From Arcobacter nitrofigilis DSM 7299 (lineage in GTDB: Bacteria > Campylobacterota > Campylobacteria > Campylobacterales > Arcobacteraceae): a DNA stretch of 64,000 nt. The notes beneath the pieces are model-generated. The model searched no databases, had not been told where the DNA came from, and saw nothing but the letters and a program-made list of their open reading frames with translations. Shown one piece after another: positions 4,910 through 15,254 of the stretch; the first letter of the stretch is position 1, and every line of letters begins with the position of its first letter. The DNA lies in NCBI RefSeq assembly GCF_000092245.1, contig NC_014166.1, forward strand, positions 62,001 through 126,000. The letters run 5' to 3'. A program made the translations under genes and the position numbers.

Positions 4910-6250
4910 TTAATTCCAAGGTTCTGGACTTCCGACAACTTTAAATACCTTGTTATTAACTGCATTAGAGACATCTTTTGCTAAATTTATAAGTCCACTA
5001 TATGCCCCATAACTTACTTTTTTCTCTTGATTTACATCCACAAAGGCTACTTTTTTCTTAATAGCTGTATATAAACTTCGTCCACCTGCTAATAAAATAT
5101 CAATATTATGTTCATCTATTAGTTTTGCTTGTTCAGTTCCTGGATCATTCATAAGTATTTTTACATATGTTGCACAAATCTCTTTATCCTCTAAGGTTGC
5201 TTTTTTTACACTTGTTGCAACCACATCTATACCTATATCTTGTAAGGCAGATGCTATAGACCAGGTTTTATTCCCACCTGTATTTAAAATAGCTTTTTTC
5301 CCTTCAAGTATTTTTCTATATGGAGTTAACGCTTTTTCAAGTTTTGTCTCTTCCTCTTCTATAACTTCTTTTGCTCTTTTGATAAGTTTTTCATCTCCAA
5401 AGGCATTTACTATGCTCATAATTGCATTTGTTGTATCACGTTTTCCATAAAATGAGATACTTATATATGGTATATTGTATCTCTCTTGCATCTTTCTTGT
5501 TAGAGAGATAAGTGATTTAGCACAAACTATTACATTTAGTTTTGCCCTATGTGCCATTTGGATATTTTCTATCCTTCCATCACCTGCTAGGGTTGAAACT
5601 ACTTTTATCCCTATTTTTTCTAATATTGGAGTGTATTGCCACATGTCACCTGTAACATTGTATTCACCAATTAAATTTATTCCAAAAGGGTGAATCTCTT
5701 CAGGCTCTTTTGTTCCTATTAGTTGGTGTAAAACTGATTCTCCTCCAAGTCTTGAGCCTAAGTTTTTACCACCAACAAAGCCAGGAGAGTGAATAACAAC
5801 TATGGGAATACCGTGTTTCTCTTCCATCCTATTACAAGTATTATCCATATCATCACCAATCATTGCAGTTACACAAGTTTCGTATACAAAAATTCCTTTT
5901 GGATTTTTATTTGCAACTATATAATTAATAGCATCTTCTAGTTTTTTATCTCCACCAAAAATTACATCATTTGTATTTACATCTGTTGTATATCCAGTAA
6001 TTGTATTATTTTCCCCATGGTGTGAAGTTAGAGTTTGTCTAGTCTCCCATGAAGCTCCTATACATGTGGCTGGTGAATGAACTAAATGTACTACATCAGC
6101 AAAAGGGAAAAGCGCGATTTGAGCCCCTTCAAAAGCGCATCCACCACTAGTAGCCCCTGGTTTTGGTTTATCACATGATGATTTTTTTTCTTTATTATGA
6201 GAGCAGGCACTTTCGCTTAATAACTCTTGTATTAGTTTTTTATTTACCAT
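4910..6250 (-). CDS. nifE: NifE, FeMo-cofactor assembly scaffold subunit
   Basis: NifE forms the NifEN heterotetramer with NifN. There the NifB cluster receives Mo and homocitrate before delivery to apo-dinitrogenase. The 446-residue protein has the expected cluster cysteines Cys38 (SGGCAFEGAQIALFPFAD), Cys63 (VHSPATCIGASWE) and Cys126 (VYETCVTAMIGDD), close to the positions known for Azotobacter NifE. Cys243 (LNVIVCAKSL) may match the cysteine proposed to anchor the precursor. FYGKRDTTNAI and a C-terminal GSPEPW are further family marks. The ATG has AAAGGA upstream and a sigma-54 promoter at 6330-6345. It is monocistronic or read into the 501-residue gene rather than into nifN. Confidence 0.96.
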   Translation of the reverse strand: MVNKKLIQELLSESACSHNKEKKSSCDKPKPGATSGGCAFEGAQIALFPFADVVHLVHSPATCIGASWETRQTLTSHHGENNTITGYTTDVNTNDVIFGGDKKLEDAINYIVANKNPKGIFVYETCVTAMIGDDMDNTCNRMEEKHGIPIVVIHSPGFVGGKNLGSRLGGESVLHQLIGTKEPEEIHPFGINLIGEYNVTGDMWQYTPILEKIGIKVVSTLAGDGRIENIQMAHRAKLNVIVCAKSLISLTRKMQERYNIPYISISFYGKRDTTNAIMSIVNAFGDEKLIKRAKEVIEEEETKLEKALTPYRKILEGKKAILNTGGNKTWSIASALQDIGIDVVATSVKKATLEDKEICATYVKILMNDPGTEQAKLIDEHNIDILLAGGRSLYTAIKKKVAFVDVNQEKKVSYGAYSGLINLAKDVSNAVNNKVFKVVGSPEPWN

Positions 6251-6355: not shown

Positions 6356-6371
6356 TGGAATAGATTTTGCA
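6356..6371 (+). promoter_or_regulatory. Sigma-54 (-24/-12) promoter of the FeMo-co protein operon
   Basis: TGGAATAGATTTTGCA, GG-N10-GC, lies 33 bases before the ATG at 6404. The 16-mer is identical, base for base, to the promoter of nifV at 11827-11842. It should drive the operon from 6404 to the flavodiiron gene ending at 9369. Confidence 0.85.
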
Positions 6372-6403: not shown

Positions 6404-6790
6404 ATGATTGCAATACCATTAAGTAAAGAAGACTCAACAGTAATTTCTGATTTATATGGAAATGCTCCATATTTTGCCTTACTAGATTTAAGTTCTGGAT
6501 ATTTTAATGTAAAAGAAAATATTGGATGTGGAAATGGGCTTGAAACAGCAAAATGTGTAGAAGAGTTAGGTGCAAAAAGTACTATTTTTTATCATATGGG
6601 TGAAGGTGTTTTTAATCATCTAAATGAAAATAAAGTAAAAGTTTATAGTGCAGCAAAAACTTATTTGACAATAGAAGATATATATAGAAATATTTTAAAC
6701 AAGTCGTGCAAAGTTGTTACAAAAGAGAATTGTGAGAGTTTATTGGACTCTGGAACTACATCTTGCTCATGTGAGTGTGATAAAAACTAA
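6404..6790 (+). CDS. FeMo-cofactor-binding protein of the NifX/NifB C-terminal family
   Basis: A 128-residue protein of the dinitrogenase iron-molybdenum cofactor family, whose members (NifX, NafY, the NifB C-terminus) bind and shuttle FeMo-co or its precursors in the cytoplasm. Family signs are the opening MIAIPLSKEDSTVISDLYG with a Phe/Tyr-rich strand after it, and the block ENIGCGNGLETAKCVEELGAK. The tail is unusually Cys-rich (SCSCECDKN), adding to Cys in NKSCKVV and KENCESL; extra metal ligands are possible. It is the first gene of an operon with the HicB-Sel1-NifU fusion, nifX and the flavodiiron protein. The regular nifX is at 7770, so this is a second, separate family member. Confidence 0.85.
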   Translation: MIAIPLSKEDSTVISDLYGNAPYFALLDLSSGYFNVKENIGCGNGLETAKCVEELGAKSTIFYHMGEGVFNHLNENKVKVYSAAKTYLTIEDIYRNILNKSCKVVTKENCESLLDSGTTSCSCECDKN

Positions 6791-6801: not shown

Positions 6802-7773
6802 ATGGAAAAAGATTTAGAATATTATCTGTCTTTAGACTATCCCTTTGAAACATATAGTGGAGAAAATGAAGTTGGAGATGCTTTTTTAGTAGAGTTTTTT
6901 GATTTTGATATAAAAGCTTCAAGTGAAGATTTTGATGAGGCAGTTGAACTTGCACATACATATTTAGAAGAACACTTAAAAAGAGAATTAAAAGCAAAAA
7001 GAGAAATACCAAAGCCAAATGAAGGAAGAAGATTTATGGAACATAGAACTGCATTAGCTGCATATAAAAACAAAGACTTTGAAAAGGCCTATAGCATTTG
7101 GGAAGAAGAAGCAAAATTAAAAAATGATCAAGCTATGGCAAATTTAGGTTTGATGTACTTAAAAGGTGAAGGTGTAGAAAAGGATTATTCTATAGCTAAA
7201 GATTGGTTTGAGAAAGCTAGTTCTTATGATAATGATTCTGCAAATTTTAATTTGGCACTTATGTATCAAACAAAAATTGGTGTTGAAGAAGATATAGAAA
7301 AAGCAAAAGAGTATTTTAGAAAAGCAGTTAGAAAAAATCATACCCAAGCAGCCTTTAGATTGGCTCTTGTTTTACTTCAAGATAGACAAAATTTAGATGG
7401 GGTAAGAGAAGGTTTTGACTGTATGTTAAAAGCTGCAAAAAACGGTCATGCAATGGCAAGTATTCAATTAACAGGTATAGATAAAGATCTAGCAACCAAT
7501 GTGGAATTAAATGAGCATTTTAGAGCTCAAAGCATGGAAAAACAACTAGAAATCATCAATGATACTTTAGATAGATTTATTAGACCAATTTTATTAAAAG
7601 ATGGTGGGAATATTTTACTAATAGATTATGTAAATGAACCAGAAATAGAACTAAGACTTGCTTATCAAGGCGCTTGTGTTGGGTGTTCAATTGCAAGTAC
7701 GGGAACTTATGAGATGATAAAAGGTACTTTAGAAAAGGTAATTGACCCAAGAGTTAGGTTATATATATTATGA
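6802..7773 (+). CDS. HicB-like / Sel1-repeat / NifU C-terminal domain fusion protein
   Basis: A 323-residue cytoplasmic protein with three parts. Residues 5-74 resemble a HicB-type antitoxin fold (YYLSLDYPFETY, then DAFLVEFFDFDIKASSEDFDEAVE and a following helix). Residues 80-225 contain Sel1/TPR-like repeats (ANLGLMYLKGEGVEKDYSIA, ANFNLALMYQTKIGVEEDIEKA and a third copy near 180). Residues 249-323 are a NifU C-terminal (Nfu) domain with RPILLKDGGNILLIDYV and GACVGCSIAST, Cys292-x2-Cys295 being the expected Fe-S ligands. This suggests an Fe-S carrier with an added protein-protein interaction scaffold, serving nitrogenase maturation. The ATG at 6802 is preferred over an in-frame TTG at 6796. 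The stop codon overlaps the nifX start (ATGA). Confidence 0.85.
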   Translation: MEKDLEYYLSLDYPFETYSGENEVGDAFLVEFFDFDIKASSEDFDEAVELAHTYLEEHLKRELKAKREIPKPNEGRRFMEHRTALAAYKNKDFEKAYSIWEEEAKLKNDQAMANLGLMYLKGEGVEKDYSIAKDWFEKASSYDNDSANFNLALMYQTKIGVEEDIEKAKEYFRKAVRKNHTQAAFRLALVLLQDRQNLDGVREGFDCMLKAAKNGHAMASIQLTGIDKDLATNVELNEHFRAQSMEKQLEIINDTLDRFIRPILLKDGGNILLIDYVNEPEIELRLAYQGACVGCSIASTGTYEMIKGTLEKVIDPRVRLYIL

Positions 7774-8126
7774 GAATTGCATTTGCTTCTAAAGATAATA
7801 TTCATGTAAACCAACATTTTGGTTGGGCAAAAGAGTTTTATATTTATGAAATAAAAGATGATAATTATACTTTTGTAAAATCAGTTGATTCTTCAATTGA
7901 GATTGAAGATGAAATAGAGAAACTTAATTACAAAATTGAATGTTGTGAAGGTTGTGATATTTTATATGTTCAACAAATCGGACCAAAAGCCTCTTTGATG
8001 GTAAAAGCTTCAAAAATATTTCCAATGCAAGCAAGTGCTGAAAATGAAAAGATAGAAGAAATTCTACAAAAATTAATTAAAATGAAAGAGAACCCTCCCC
8101 TTTGGATGAGAAGGTTGATAGGTTAA
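7770..8126 (+). CDS. nifX: NifX, FeMo-cofactor precursor carrier
   Basis: A 118-residue member of the dinitrogenase iron-molybdenum cofactor family. It opens MRIAFASKDNIHVNQHFGWA, with the conserved HFG, then FYIYEIKDD, and ends NPPLWMRRLIG, the hallmark NifX tail. NifX holds NifB-co and the VK-cluster between NifB, NifEN and the apoenzyme. It overlaps the preceding fusion gene by 4 bases (ATGA) and is followed 4 bases later by the flavodiiron gene, so translation is coupled. nifX sits here rather than after nifN, where it is usually found. Confidence 0.92.
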   Translation: MRIAFASKDNIHVNQHFGWAKEFYIYEIKDDNYTFVKSVDSSIEIEDEIEKLNYKIECCEGCDILYVQQIGPKASLMVKASKIFPMQASAENEKIEEILQKLIKMKENPPLWMRRLIG

Positions 8127-8130
8127 TAAC

Positions 8131-9369
8131 ATGTATTCAAATAAACCTATAGAAATTGCACCAAATATTTATTTTATAGGATCATTTGATCCAGATATCA
8201 GAACTTTTGATATTATTATGAAAACAGCCAATGGCTCATCATATAATGCTTATTTAATCAAAACAGATGAAGGTGTGATTATTCTAGATACTGTAAAACT
8301 GGAGTTTCAAGATGAATTTTTCAAAAAGATTGAAGCTTTGTGTTCTTATGAAGAGATTAAATATGTCATCTCTCATCACCTAGAACCAGACCATGCAGGT
8401 GCAATTCCTGAATTAATAAATAGAGCTCCAAGGGCAAAAGTTTTAATCTCTCCCCAAGCAACACCTATGTTAAAAGCAATAACAAGAAACGAAAATATTG
8501 ATTTTGAGACAGTCTGGACAAATAAAAGTTTGACCTTAGGTAATAAAACAATCAAATTTCTTACAACGCCATATTTACATTGGCCAGAAACTATGAGTTC
8601 ATATGTGGTAGAGGATAAATTACTATTTTCAGGTGATGTTTTTGGAAGTCATTATCACGATAGAAGACTGTTTGATGATTTAGTTGGAGATTTTTTCTAC
8701 GCTTTTAAATACTATTATGACCATATTATGAGACCCTTTAAATCTTATGCTTTAAATGCAATCAAACTTTATGACAAACTTGAAATTGATATGATAGCAA
8801 CCCTTCATGGACCAATATTAAGGAATAATCCAAAACAATATATTGATTATTATAGAAAGTGGAGCCAAGATAATTATAAAGATAGTGCACATGGTAAAAA
8901 AATCTTGTCTATTTTTTATCTAACAAGTTACAAAAATACTAAAGATATGGCCGAAGCTATATTTGAAGGTGCGGAAAGTGTTGATGGAATCATCACCAAT
9001 GTGTATGATTTAGCCTCTATTGAAGAATCAAATATGATAAATATACTTGAAGAGAGTGATGGTGTTTTAATAGGAACACCAACAATTAATGCAGATGCCC
9101 CAAAACCTGTTTGGGATCTGCTCTCATGTATGATGTTGTTGGAAAAAAAGGGAAAAACAGGAGGTGCTTTTGGTTCTTATGGTTGGAGTGGTGAAGCTAT
9201 TGATATGATTTTACATAGATTAAAATCCCTAAACTTTAGAGTTCCTCCAATGGATTCTTTAAAAATAAAACTAATACCCACAACAGAAGAACTTGCCCAA
9301 TGTTACGATTATGGAGTAGAGTTTGCAGAAATTATAAATGGAAAAATGTTAGAAATGACCATGAACTAA
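8131..9369 (+). CDS. Flavodiiron protein (FprA-type oxygen/NO reductase)
   Basis: A 412-residue A-type flavoprotein. The N-terminal metallo-beta-lactamase-like domain (1-250) carries the diiron ligand motif HHLEPDHAG (His83, Glu85, Asp87, His88), a later FSGDVFGSHYHD block with the bridging Asp, and a ligand His in TLHGP. The C-terminal flavodoxin domain (about 258-405) has IFYLTSYKNTKDMAEAI and GSYGWSGEA for FMN binding. Such proteins reduce O2 to water or NO to N2O in the cytoplasm. Its place as last gene of a sigma-54-driven nif operon suggests it protects oxygen-sensitive nitrogenase assembly. No rubredoxin domain is fused, so electrons must come from a separate donor. A terminator hairpin follows. 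Confidence 0.93.
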   Translation: MYSNKPIEIAPNIYFIGSFDPDIRTFDIIMKTANGSSYNAYLIKTDEGVIILDTVKLEFQDEFFKKIEALCSYEEIKYVISHHLEPDHAGAIPELINRAPRAKVLISPQATPMLKAITRNENIDFETVWTNKSLTLGNKTIKFLTTPYLHWPETMSSYVVEDKLLFSGDVFGSHYHDRRLFDDLVGDFFYAFKYYYDHIMRPFKSYALNAIKLYDKLEIDMIATLHGPILRNNPKQYIDYYRKWSQDNYKDSAHGKKILSIFYLTSYKNTKDMAEAIFEGAESVDGIITNVYDLASIEESNMINILEESDGVLIGTPTINADAPKPVWDLLSCMMLLEKKGKTGGAFGSYGWSGEAIDMILHRLKSLNFRVPPMDSLKIKLIPTTEELAQCYDYGVEFAEIINGKMLEMTMN

Positions 9370-9424: not shown

Positions 9425-9432
9425 CTATTTGT

Positions 9433-9618
9433 TTATGATAGGTCACTAAGTGTTGATACCTTATAAACTACATCTTTGAGTTCATTTAGTTTTTTTATTA
9501 TATCTTCATCACAGTGTTTATCCATATCAAATCTTGTCTCCATAAAATAATATATATTATCTATATTTGAAAATACTTCTTGGAGAAGTTGCTCTTTTAT
9601 ACTATCTTGTATACTCAT
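9433..9618 (-). CDS. Small nif-linked hypothetical protein (61 residues)
   Basis: A short acidic, mostly helical protein (MSIQDSIKEQLLQEVFSNID...) with one cysteine (Cys36). Its ATG overlaps the end of the ArsC-like nitrogenase-associated gene by 4 bases, so it is translated from the same sigma-54-driven message. I do not recognise the family; small helical proteins of unknown role are common in nif clusters. It ends 9 bases before a terminator hairpin. Confidence 0.65.
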   Translation of the reverse strand: MSIQDSIKEQLLQEVFSNIDNIYYFMETRFDMDKHCDEDIIKKLNELKDVVYKVSTLSDLS

Positions 9619-9974
9619 CTTAACTCCCTTAGTTTAAAATCTAAAATTTTATTTAAATCAAATCCACAAAATTTATTTGTACCAATTGTTATAAGAGGTC
9701 TTTTTATTAAAATAGGATTTGAAATCATAAGATTTAGTAACTCCTCATCAGAAGTATTATCTAAATCTATCTCCTTGTTTTTTACAAGTGGGGCATTTGG
9801 ATTTATGCACTCTTTTATACTTTTATTCTCAAAAAAGTTAAGTAGTTGGTTTTTTGAAAAGTTTGTTTTCAATAAATCTGTACTAATAACATTGAAGCCA
9901 AAGTCTTTTAATCTCTTCTTTTGTTTGGTGTTATTTACACATCCAACTTTTTCATAAAAAATTACTGGAATCAT
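9615..9974 (-). CDS. Nitrogenase-associated ArsC/Spx-like protein
   Basis: A 119-residue thioredoxin-fold protein of the ArsC/Spx group, matching the nif-specific subfamily (TIGR01616, nitrogenase-associated protein) through YEKVGCVNNTKQKKRL at the N-terminus. A single Cys12 sits where arsenate reductases have their active cysteine. Further family marks are the SNPILIKRPLITIG block and the C-terminal FCGFD. The role is unknown; a redox or regulatory function near nitrogenase is assumed for the subfamily. It is transcribed from a sigma-54 promoter at 10001-10016, divergent from nifB, and is coupled to the 61-residue gene. Confidence 0.88.
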   Translation of the reverse strand: MIPVIFYEKVGCVNNTKQKKRLKDFGFNVISTDLLKTNFSKNQLLNFFENKSIKECINPNAPLVKNKEIDLDNTSDEELLNLMISNPILIKRPLITIGTNKFCGFDLNKILDFKLRELR

Positions 9975-11874: not shown

Positions 11875-12990
11875 ATGTTTCTTATAAATGACACAACATT
11901 ACGAGATGGCGAACAAGCTCCTTATGTAGCATTTAATACAAAAGAAAAATTAGATATTGCCCAAAAACTTTATGAAGCGGGCGCAGATGAACTTGAAGTT
12001 GGAATTCCTGCAATGGGAAAAAAAGAACAAGAAGACCTAAAAGAGATTTTAGCTTTAAATCTTCCTATTCCAATCATGAGTTGGAATAGAGCAACAATGA
12101 GCGATTTGGAAGCTTCTTTAGAGTGTGGGCTCAAATCAGTTGATTTATCAATTCCTGTTTCAGATATCTTAATTGATGTGAAATTTGGTGGAGATAAAGA
12201 AAAAGTCTTATCTCAACTTGAAAAGGTGATTCTACATGCAAAAAAAGAAGGCTTATTTGTTTGCATTGGAGGAGAAGATTCAAGTAGAGCTGATTTGAAC
12301 TTTTTAAAAGAGATTTTGGCACTAGGAAAAAGTCTTGGTGCAAATAGATTTAGATATTGTGATACAGTTGGAATATTAACTCCTACAAAAACTTATCAAA
12401 ATATTAGTGAGCTTACAAAGTTAGATTTACTTGATATTGAAATGCATACCCATAATGATTTTGGTATGGCAACAGCGAATGCTATTTCGGGTTATGAAGC
12501 AGGAGCAAAAAGTGCTAATACTACCGTTATTGGGTTAGGTGAACGCGCGGGAAATGCCTCTTTTGAACAAGTATTGATGACTTTGGCAAGACTTCTTGGA
12601 AAAGATACACAAATAAAATCTGATAAATTAAAAGCACTTATTCAAACAGTAGGATTAGCATCAAATAGAAGAATAGATACTAATTTACCTATTGTTGGAG
12701 AGTATATCTTCTCCCATGAATCTGGTATTCATGTAAATGGAATGATGAAATCAAAAAGTGCTTATGAGCCGTTTACTCCAATGGAAGTTGGATTAGAGAG
12801 ATATTTCCCTATAGGAAAACACTCAGGAACATCTACTTTACTTTTTCACTTACAAACTTTAGGAATCACTCCTACAAAAGAGAGCCTACAAAAGTTATTG
12901 CCATTGGTTAGAGAAATGGTTACAAATAGAAAAAAAGTGTTAGATATAAAAGAATTGGAAGAGTTATACTTATGTTCGTTGGATATTTAA
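11875..12990 (+). CDS. nifV: NifV, homocitrate synthase
   Basis: Condenses acetyl-CoA with 2-oxoglutarate to (R)-homocitrate, the organic ligand of FeMo-cofactor. The 371-residue protein shows the DRE-TIM metallolyase opening INDTTLRDGEQAPYVAF (Asp6, Arg10, Asp11, Gln14), DTVG near residue 163, metal-binding HTHNDFGMATANA, and the GERAGNASFEQV signature with HESGIHVNGM later. The length matches NifV rather than the longer LeuA isopropylmalate synthases. Lying under a nif-type promoter in a nif cluster, NifV is favoured over a lysine-pathway enzyme. The next gene starts 19 bases inside its 3' end. Confidence 0.95.
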   Translation: MFLINDTTLRDGEQAPYVAFNTKEKLDIAQKLYEAGADELEVGIPAMGKKEQEDLKEILALNLPIPIMSWNRATMSDLEASLECGLKSVDLSIPVSDILIDVKFGGDKEKVLSQLEKVILHAKKEGLFVCIGGEDSSRADLNFLKEILALGKSLGANRFRYCDTVGILTPTKTYQNISELTKLDLLDIEMHTHNDFGMATANAISGYEAGAKSANTTVIGLGERAGNASFEQVLMTLARLLGKDTQIKSDKLKALIQTVGLASNRRIDTNLPIVGEYIFSHESGIHVNGMMKSKSAYEPFTPMEVGLERYFPIGKHSGTSTLLFHLQTLGITPTKESLQKLLPLVREMVTNRKKVLDIKELEELYLCSLDI

Positions 12991-13778
12991 GAAATGATTT
13001 TGAGGAAGAACTTTCTAGTATATTAGAAAGTGATACTCTTTTTGACTTGGAATTGTTAAAACAAACATATGAGATATTCCCTCAATACTGTTTTGCTGCC
13101 TATGAAGATGGTAAAATTGTAGGGGTAGTTAGTGCTTATGCTTTTAGTAAACATGTATTTATAAATGTAATTAAAGCTTTGGATACACACAAAGATGTAC
13201 TTACACGACTTATTAAGTTATTAGTGCAAAATGTGTCAAGTATGAATATATATGTACTAATAGAAGATAAGTTAGCTTCATATTTTACTGCTTTTAATTT
13301 TCAAGAACATTCAAAGTTTTTAAGATATTTACATAGTGGTGAAGCTGTTGCTTTTAACTTTTCAAATTCAACTGCGAAACAAGTAAGTGGAGAAAACTAT
13401 GATGATATCTCTAGAAAAATAGATAGGGAAGTCTTTTTAGATGACAGAGAAGAGTACATAAAAAAAGATTGCGTATTTACAAACTCTTTGAAACTTTCAA
13501 CAACAAGTGGTTTTATGCACTCATATGTAGTAAATAAAAGATATATAAAAATCTCACCTTGGCTTATGCAAAATGAATCTTACTTAGATGCTGAAAAGCT
13601 TTTAAGAGGAGTTTTGTATTATCGAGGGTTAAAGAAAATATTTGCTTTTATCCCAAAAGATATAAAAGAGATAAGTGAACTCTATGAGAGTTATAAGTTT
13701 AAAAAAGATGGAAATTTTTCTTTGCTTTATTTAGGTGAAAAGCCTGAACTAAAGTTAGAGAATTTATATGCACTTTAA
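12972..13778 (+). CDS. GNAT-like acetyltransferase-fold protein in the nifV operon
   Basis: A 268-residue protein that looks like two GNAT-type halves. The first has YCFAAYEDGKIVGVVSAYAF, the usual beta-strand pair of acyl-CoA N-acyltransferases. The second (about residues 155-260) ends with LRGVLYYRGLKKIFAFIP and SYKFKKDGNFSLLYLG, resembling the last strands of the fold. The substrate is unknown. The start lies 19 bases inside nifV with GGAAGAG 8 bases upstream, so translation is coupled to homocitrate synthase. The link to nitrogen fixation comes from context only; no Gly-rich Q/RxxGxG/A acetyl-CoA loop is obvious, so it may not be a catalytic acetyltransferase. Confidence 0.6.
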   Translation: MFVGYLRNDFEEELSSILESDTLFDLELLKQTYEIFPQYCFAAYEDGKIVGVVSAYAFSKHVFINVIKALDTHKDVLTRLIKLLVQNVSSMNIYVLIEDKLASYFTAFNFQEHSKFLRYLHSGEAVAFNFSNSTAKQVSGENYDDISRKIDREVFLDDREEYIKKDCVFTNSLKLSTTSGFMHSYVVNKRYIKISPWLMQNESYLDAEKLLRGVLYYRGLKKIFAFIPKDIKEISELYESYKFKKDGNFSLLYLGEKPELKLENLYAL

Positions 13779-14261: not shown

Positions 14262-15254
14262 ATGAGAAGTGAAATAGAAGACTTTATTAAATGGGTAAAT
14301 GTTAATGGTTTAAACTCTTATATCTCTACACATATTGATGATATAAATGGTATGACACACTTAGATTTATCAAAAAAGAAAATAAGAGAACTTCCTGAAT
14401 CCTTTGGTGTATTACAAAATCTTACAGTATTGAAATTGTCAAATAATAGATTAAAGAAACTACCTAATTGTATTGGTGAATTTAAATACTTAAAAAATTT
14501 ACAATGTGAAAATAATCTTTTAAGTGAGATACCAAGCAGTATTGGCAAGCTTTCAAAATTGTTGATTTTAAATCTAAATGGTAATAGATTAGAAGAATTG
14601 CCAAAAGAGTTATATGATTTAAAAAGCCTGACAAGGCTAACTTTAGCAGCAAATAAGATAAAAAGACTTGATGTTGAATTAGGAAAATTATCAAAACTTT
14701 TATATTTTTCTTTAGATACAAATGAATTAGACGAATTACCTGATAGTTTTTCTAAGATGAAGTCTTTGTATTATCTTGATGTTTCATTTAACAATTTAAC
14801 AAAGTTACCTAAATCTATTTCCCAAATAGATGAGTTACAAACATTATTGTTAGAGGGAAATCAAATAGATGATTTACCATCTTTAGAATCCCATGATATG
14901 CTCATAAAACTTGATTTAAGTGATAATTCTCTAAAATCTTTAGATTTTAATGTAAGTAAATTAGAAGATTTAAAAATACTTATTTTGGATAATAATTTTC
15001 TAGTAAAACTTCCCGATGAGGTATGTGATTTAACTAATCTAACTAACTTAAGTGTTAGTTCAAATTCTTTGATTGAACTTCCTAAAAACATAGGAAAACT
15101 GCAAAATCTTGAAGAGTTGGATATAGAAGATAATAGTGTAGAAAAGCTACCAGACTCTTTTTTTGAATTAAAAAAGTTAAAAAACTTATATTTAGCAGAT
15201 AATGAGGGATTAAAAAGACCAGAGGGAATGGATTTTGAATATTGTGATATATAA
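14262..15254 (+). CDS. Leucine-rich repeat protein in the nifV operon
   Basis: A 330-residue protein made almost wholly of about twelve 23-residue leucine-rich repeats of the form LxxLxxLxLxxNxLxxLPxxIGxL (for example LTVLKLSNNRLKKLPNCIG), after a short N-terminal cap. The repeats are of the bacterial/plant cytoplasmic LRR type. No signal peptide, kinase, GTPase or membrane anchor is present, so it is likely a cytoplasmic binding scaffold. It starts 1 base after the stop of the Cys-rich gene and lies before nifQ, so it is part of the sigma-54-driven nif operon. Its partner is unknown. Functional analogy with the LRV Fe-S repeat protein near Azotobacter nif genes is speculative. Confidence 0.88.
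   Translation: MRSEIEDFIKWVNVNGLNSYISTHIDDINGMTHLDLSKKKIRELPESFGVLQNLTVLKLSNNRLKKLPNCIGEFKYLKNLQCENNLLSEIPSSIGKLSKLLILNLNGNRLEELPKELYDLKSLTRLTLAANKIKRLDVELGKLSKLLYFSLDTNELDELPDSFSKMKSLYYLDVSFNNLTKLPKSISQIDELQTLLLEGNQIDDLPSLESHDMLIKLDLSDNSLKSLDFNVSKLEDLKILILDNNFLVKLPDEVCDLTNLTNLSVSSNSLIELPKNIGKLQNLEELDIEDNSVEKLPDSFFELKKLKNLYLADNEGLKRPEGMDFEYCDI

Follow-up and report, generated by a model that had tools for sequence, protein, structure and literature searches.

A nif-linked Sel1-Nfu protein with a HicB-like N-terminus in Arcobacter nitrofigilis, a probable delivery protein for nitrogenase assembly

We investigated a gene of Arcobacter nitrofigilis DSM 7299 that lies within a 64,000-nucleotide stretch of the chromosome (NC_014166.1, positions 62,001 to 126,000; hereafter the window, with the whole genome designated G000). 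The initial annotation described it as a fusion of HicB-like, Sel1-repeat, and NifU C-terminal domains between a FeMo-co-binding protein gene and nifX. The reading frame, its two cysteines, and both neighbours are found exactly as described. The features of the locus, in window coordinates, are as follows.

4910..6250, minus strand: divergent upstream gene, presumptively of nifE type (nifD-model score of 278 bits for the match at G000:C1:66925-68235)
6356..6371, plus strand: candidate sigma-54 (-24/-12) site TGGAATAGATTTTGCA, before 6404, two mismatches
6404..6790, plus strand: FeMo-co-binding-domain protein (PF02579, Pfam), upstream neighbour
6802..7773, plus strand: HicB-like/Sel1/Nfu gene, 323 aa, ATG at 6802, stop at 7771-7773
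6802..7026, plus strand: HicB-like N-terminal domain, residues 1-75, the N-terminal half of HicB without the ribbon-helix-helix
7027..7467, plus strand: Sel1 helical solenoid, residues 76-222, two repeats above threshold and further helix pairs in the model
7531..7770, plus strand: Nfu (NifU C-terminal) domain, residues 244-323, from Pfam and the model
7675..7686, plus strand: codons of Cys292-x2-Cys295, predicted Fe-S ligands, both Cys invariant in two alignments
7770..8126, plus strand: nifX, its start overlapping the stop of the HicB-like/Sel1/Nfu gene (ATGA)
8131..9369, plus strand: flavodiiron-type protein after nifX (PF19583 ODP plus flavodoxin)

The nifX of the window scores 101.3 bits against TIGR02663, below the cut-off of 112. 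The same genome carries nifH, nifD, nifW, nifZ, and genes for a DUF269 protein and sigma-54 upstream of the HicB-like/Sel1/Nfu gene, at distances of up to about 24 kb, and nifB, nifV, and nifQ lie further downstream in the cluster. The names nifE, nifN, nifB, nifV, and nifK are used here partly by presumption. The sigma-54 gene has all three Pfam domains and lies within the nif cluster (L173 12794-14041; G000:C1 about 54.8-56.0 kb). Two further genes of the cluster keep their positions elsewhere: a GNAT-type acetyltransferase-like gene (window 12972-13778) overlaps the end of nifV and accompanies nifV in several genomes, and a leucine-rich-repeat protein of 330 aa (window 14262-15254) lies ahead of nifQ, as it does in related genomes.

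A sigma-54 promoter had also been proposed for the operon. The candidate site at 6356-6371 lies 33-48 bp ahead of the first gene (6404), so that a promoter there is plausible only by its position; the number of sigma-54-like patterns in the window is at chance (22 versus 20.15 expected). Five sigma-54-like sites of this chance-level total (window 1396, 6330, 6356, 10027, and 11827) lie about 30-80 bp before nif-cluster genes.

Next, we analyzed the domains of the protein. Pfam identifies Sel1 repeats (PF08238) in two stretches, with an E-value of 3.6e-20 and 72.1 bits against a cut-off of 30.7, and NifU (PF01106) at residues 252-318, with an E-value of 3.5e-13 and 49.9 bits against a cut-off of 27. 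Cys292 and Cys295 are invariant in all 29 sequences of one alignment and all 17 of another. With a PF01106 match above cut-off and the CxxC pair, the C-terminal part is a predicted Nfu-type carrier domain. An AlphaFold2 model of the full-length protein, built with 29 sequences (pLDDT 88.0, pTM 0.71), contains a strand-and-helix domain at residues 1-64, helix pairs from residue 76 to about 222, and a C-terminal domain bearing the CxxC motif. A Foldseek search with this model ranks Sel1 proteins first. The Sel1 and Nfu parts of the original description are thus borne out.

The N-terminus required other approaches. Pfam returned no HicB family for the 323-aa protein at E ≤ 1, and nothing over residues 1-75; therefore, a plain profile search would miss the HicB-like part. 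Across 18 orthologous N-termini, 12 weakly matched the HicB family PF15919 (best E 0.0076), more than matched any other family. DUF2024 and Ribosomal_S30AE, which we considered and rejected, were matched by 8 and 3 of the 18, respectively. We then drew stand-alone HicB-like genes from 60 related genomes, which gave 14 matches with usable N-termini in 10. Two of these HicB proteins, L141 and L137, are each 32% identical to the window protein over 74 and 78 residues (BLAST E 2e-11 and 2e-9, each as a single comparison), and their similar starts (YYLSLDY and YYMSLDY) resemble its own. L137 has its ribbon-helix-helix part, and a HicA gene (PF07927, E 5.6e-7) overlaps its start; with HicA alongside, it is by context a real antitoxin.

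Profile alignment of the 18 N-termini with the 10 HicB N-termini using hhalign gave 97.5% with a score of 62.1, a match that leans on L141 and L137, both HicB proteins from the same order. Among 100 column-shuffled versions of the HicB alignment the highest score was 15.9, and the reversed alignment reached 7.8. Upon removal of L141 and L137, the match fell to 10.5% with a score of 20.3, so the link runs via a HicB group of Campylobacterota. Residues 1-78 modeled alone with AlphaFold2 (pLDDT 87.8) gave VIA results in which HicB-family entries fill most of the top rows, including 6u0i (Z 7.6), 6g1c (7.2), 6g1n (6.8), 6g26 (6.4), and 2dsy (TTHA0281; Z 8.3), which we take to be a HicB-family structure; most HicB rows are below Z 8, and unrelated folds come next at 5 to 6. 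The dsRNA-binding and S30AE domains, also entertained for this segment, score below the best HicB rows. A Foldseek search of the N-terminal model against the PDB gave no match below E 0.001, and the best natural PDB sequence match is HicB 5yrz at E 0.033. We reject chance resemblance on the shuffle controls and the fold, with the reservation that the profile match depends on L141 and L137. Identity to L141 and L137, the HicB profile, and solved HicB folds all indicate that residues 1-75 are truly HicB-like. Profile searches and structure prediction thus recovered all three segments named in the initial annotation, Sel1 and NifU over their Pfam cut-offs and HicB by hhalign, BLAST, and fold, but the HicB homology covers only the N-terminal half of that protein, without its tail.

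We surveyed the gene across genomes. Within the family to which the window's organism belongs, it occurs in 30 of 104 genomes (E ≤ 1e-25), and a nifD-model match occurs in 32, above cut-off in 31. All 30 gene-bearing genomes are among these 32, and none of the 72 genomes negative for the nifD model has the gene; of the two nif-positive genomes that lack it, one is 84% and the other 86% complete. Among 397 genomes drawn from the phylum, 48 had the gene (E ≤ 1e-28), 74 had nifD (E ≤ 1e-150), and 47 had both. The 48th gene-bearing genome, G441, has a nifE-level match (E 3.8e-89) and nifX as the adjoining gene. Neither outcome that the initial annotation named as refuting, a lack of HicB or Sel1 similarity or homologues detached from nif genes, was seen, and the Sel1-Nfu core is tightly and near-exclusively nif-linked. 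The full gene is missing from 27 of the 74 nifD-positive genomes. Five of these (G169, G289, G385, G431, and G434) have a shortened form, with open frames of about 150-172 aa that keep the C-terminal half, and nifX is downstream in all four that were read. The remaining 22 have partial matches at most, neither form being present at the thresholds used; therefore, the gene is not needed for every nitrogenase of Campylobacterota.

A scan of genome contigs with two short peptide patterns, which distant members would escape, gave 30 loci. The sole locus named as belonging to another phylum is L113 (Chlamydiales), whose match covers the Nfu part alone; the others are named Campylobacterota or, in two cases, just "bacterium." Plasmid records gave 328 partial matches, none covering 80% of the query.

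The surroundings of the gene are similarly conserved. Of 73 distinct genes, a number that includes the fragment of an interrupted copy (L084), 69 have nifX on the same strand no more than 3 kb downstream, and in 38 the two genes overlap or directly abut. The four exceptions are L061 (nifX about 5 kb off), L065, L070 (a 3-kb contig), and L125. A FeMo-co-binding-domain gene is found within 1 kb upstream in 53 of the 73, on the same strand in 40; many loci have a flank of only 1.5 kb, where absences mean little. No other neighbour is as constant as nifX, and nifQ is frequently near. Orthologues without the HicB-like domain keep the same locus. Since nifX is so constant, with a stop/start overlap in many genomes, the arrangement suggests coupled translation and perhaps a complex. 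Individual loci vary. In L057 (G014), presumed oxidoreductase-like and regulator-like genes replace the FeMo-co-binding-domain gene and the HicB-like part, and a presumed chemoreceptor-like gene separates the Sel1-Nfu gene from nifX. In L062 (G010), a 4Fe-4S ferredoxin gene (9432-9812) lies between the FeMo-co-binding-domain gene and the Sel1-Nfu gene, where other loci have gaps of 280-410 bp.

Two of these neighbours suggest alternative roles. As in the window, a flavodiiron-type gene follows nifX in many loci, and the two proteins could form an oxygen-defence module that protects or repairs Fe-S clusters instead of supplying assembly. Holo-NfuA is described as more oxygen-stable than A-type carriers (PMC8593673), which would fit. 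However, in the Sulfurimonadaceae-type loci L114-L132, the second main tree group, no flavodiiron gene was detected with the window protein as query, while nifX stays, and we consider this role unlikely. The protein could also be the specific Fe-S donor for NifQ, the molybdenum donor. In G003 and G118, nifQ is the one gene separating the FeMo-co-binding-domain gene from the Sel1-Nfu gene, and it is close in many other loci; in Azotobacter, the NifQ donor is NifU (PMC11605450). Yet nifQ is about 7.5 kb away in the window, and the authors of that paper suggest that NifQ receives its clusters chiefly from the N-terminal domain of NifU and not from the Nfu part. This role seems to us slightly less likely still.

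Furthermore, we examined the history of the N-terminus on a tree of 72 Sel1-Nfu cores, from which the interrupted copy and identical cores were dropped. The tree has two main groups, and the N-terminus states require at least seven changes. The window-type N-terminus is present in 31 rows, a second HicB-like type (A3) in 9, and none in 32. The A3 assignment to HicB relies on hhalign (95.6% over 40 columns; score 44.5 against a best shuffle of 18.1 in 100), as a Pfam scan of A3 gave weak matches alone, with PF15919 in 2 of 9 and other families as often or oftener. Window-type and A3 profiles match each other at 93.0% over 46 columns, and the two types may share one origin. G014, G104, and G105, which have no N-terminus, are nested among rows that bear one, and these three look like clear losses. 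Four Sulfurimonadaceae-type genomes that were read lack most Sel1 repeats as well. No split HicB-like gene was found beside domain-less orthologues in 9,029 frames, apart from the interrupted copy in G002 (L003/L084); there, an in-frame stop after the HicB-like part interrupts the orthologue, in a metagenome assembly where it may be an error.

Since the HicB-like part occurs, in two sequence types, in only 40 of 72 distinct genes, the stable unit is Sel1-Nfu. Median dN/dS is 0.207 for the N-terminus, 0.167 for Sel1, and 0.169 for Nfu, calculated from 175 of 325 pairs, those with dS of 0.1-2.0 in each of the three parts, with the remaining 150 left out. Purifying selection acts on all three parts, the HicB-like add-on included. 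The HicB-like module had been presented as a defining feature of the protein, which does not hold, as 32 of the 72 orthologues lack it and what is conserved is Sel1-Nfu beside nifX.

The selection on the HicB-like domain, and its homology to L137, the HicB member of a genuine HicA-HicB pair from the same family, would be expected if it were still an antitoxin or RNA-binding regulator linking nitrogenase assembly to a toxin. We regard this as very improbable. No HicA (PF07927) was found at E ≤ 0.001 in the 3.19-Mb genome, no toxin-like gene lies alongside, and orthologues lacking the domain sit in the same locus. Pfam also gives no ribbon-helix-helix or helix-turn-helix C-terminal family in the 323-aa protein, in which Sel1 follows residue 75, and with this DNA-binding tail absent, an antitoxin role is unlikely. 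A comparison with an anti-phage library gave nothing notable.

Our preferred reading, to which we give a probability of roughly 60%, is that the protein is a nif-dedicated Nfu-type Fe-S cluster carrier, in which the Nfu domain would pick up the cluster, Sel1 would serve for docking, and the HicB-like part would offer an extra surface. There are three Nfu-domain proteins in the genome: the window protein and those in frames of 93 aa (at 758988) and 330 aa (at 872465), the latter directly after an epsilon-type nifS at 870494. The other two, and this nifS, are far from the nif cluster, so the cluster (G000 about 44.5-77.6 kb) encodes no Nfu-domain protein besides the window protein. A second, weaker match occurs near some orthologues, including those in L096 and L110, and may be a NifU-type gene; replacement of NifU is therefore no general rule.

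The scheme that follows is an inference in every part, from the binding of a cluster and its origin to the client and the tasks of Sel1 and the HicB-like part. The C-terminal domain would load a cluster onto Cys292/Cys295, with the housekeeping NifS/NifU pair, whose genes lie elsewhere in the genome, as the most likely source, and the carrier would act between this general assembly system and FeMo-co assembly. The Sel1 solenoid would dock it on a FeMo-co assembly partner and confer specificity, the flanking genes pointing most likely to the NifX/NifEN/NifQ group, and the HicB-like domain may be an optional further contact or oligomerisation surface. Delivery to NifB or NifEN, as the initial annotation proposed, is a fair guess. 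A wider picture, held tentatively and at less than even odds, is that Campylobacterota have a nitrogenase-dedicated Fe-S branch of their own, running from housekeeping NifS/NifU through a NifX-coupled Sel1-Nfu protein to FeMo-co assembly, for which half of a HicB antitoxin was captured, once or more, for docking. If this is true, the HicB fold would be used outside toxin-antitoxin systems, in metallocluster transfer. The locus also offers an example of an antitoxin domain that has probably been put to a new use and is retained under selection.

The open question of how Fe-S clusters reach the right nitrogenase assembly proteins also bears on moving nif to other hosts. It can be tested directly with a carrier that hardly ever occurs in genomes without nif and whose docking modules are separable, one or two of them being absent from some natural variants.

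Nfu carriers, Sel1 repeats, and HicB domains are each already known. A search of open-licence PMC papers (titles and abstract starts) found no description of a Sel1-Nfu nif architecture. One paper lists nifU and nifX for an epsilonproteobacterium, apparently the source of L105, and the architecture goes unremarked in the part available (PMC4674564). The protein has the helical solenoid in common with Sel1-repeat proteins (PDB 6ok3, 8sxq, and 1ouv, HcpC), but its solenoid is joined to an Nfu domain in a nif operon. With HicB antitoxins (L137, L141; PDB 6u0i, 6g1c, 6g26) it shares N-terminal sequence and predicted fold, but it has no ribbon-helix-helix tail, is fused to Sel1-Nfu, and has no HicA found in its genome.

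The C-terminal Nfu domain and nitrogenase setting are also those of NifU, which in Azotobacter serves NifH, NifB, and NifQ (PMC11605450). The window protein differs in having no IscU-like or ferredoxin domain; the NCBIfam NifU model gives 27.2 bits against 273.3, the match being confined to the C-terminal end (residues 241-319). Paenibacillus, without nifU, offers a second parallel in YutI of P. polymyxa, an Nfu-domain protein that serves nitrogenase without a nif-linked NifU, supports roughly half of the nitrogenase activity, and depends on both of its cysteines (PMC8038749). YutI, however, is single-domain and encoded outside the nif cluster.

NfuA of E. coli and Azotobacter vinelandii, which serves as the model for the mechanism proposed here, likewise has a C-terminal Nfu domain bearing CxxC plus an extra N-terminal domain; in NfuA this A-type domain targets the carrier to apo-proteins (PMC8593673). 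In the window protein, the extra domain is Sel1, with or without the HicB half, instead of a degenerate A-type domain, and the gene is in a nif cluster. The NCBIfam NfuA model gives 19.5 bits against a cut-off of 269.35, over residues 250-313 alone, and Pfam detects no A-type family. The protein is most likely an analogue of NfuA with other targeting domains, and probably a delivery protein dedicated to nitrogenase building.
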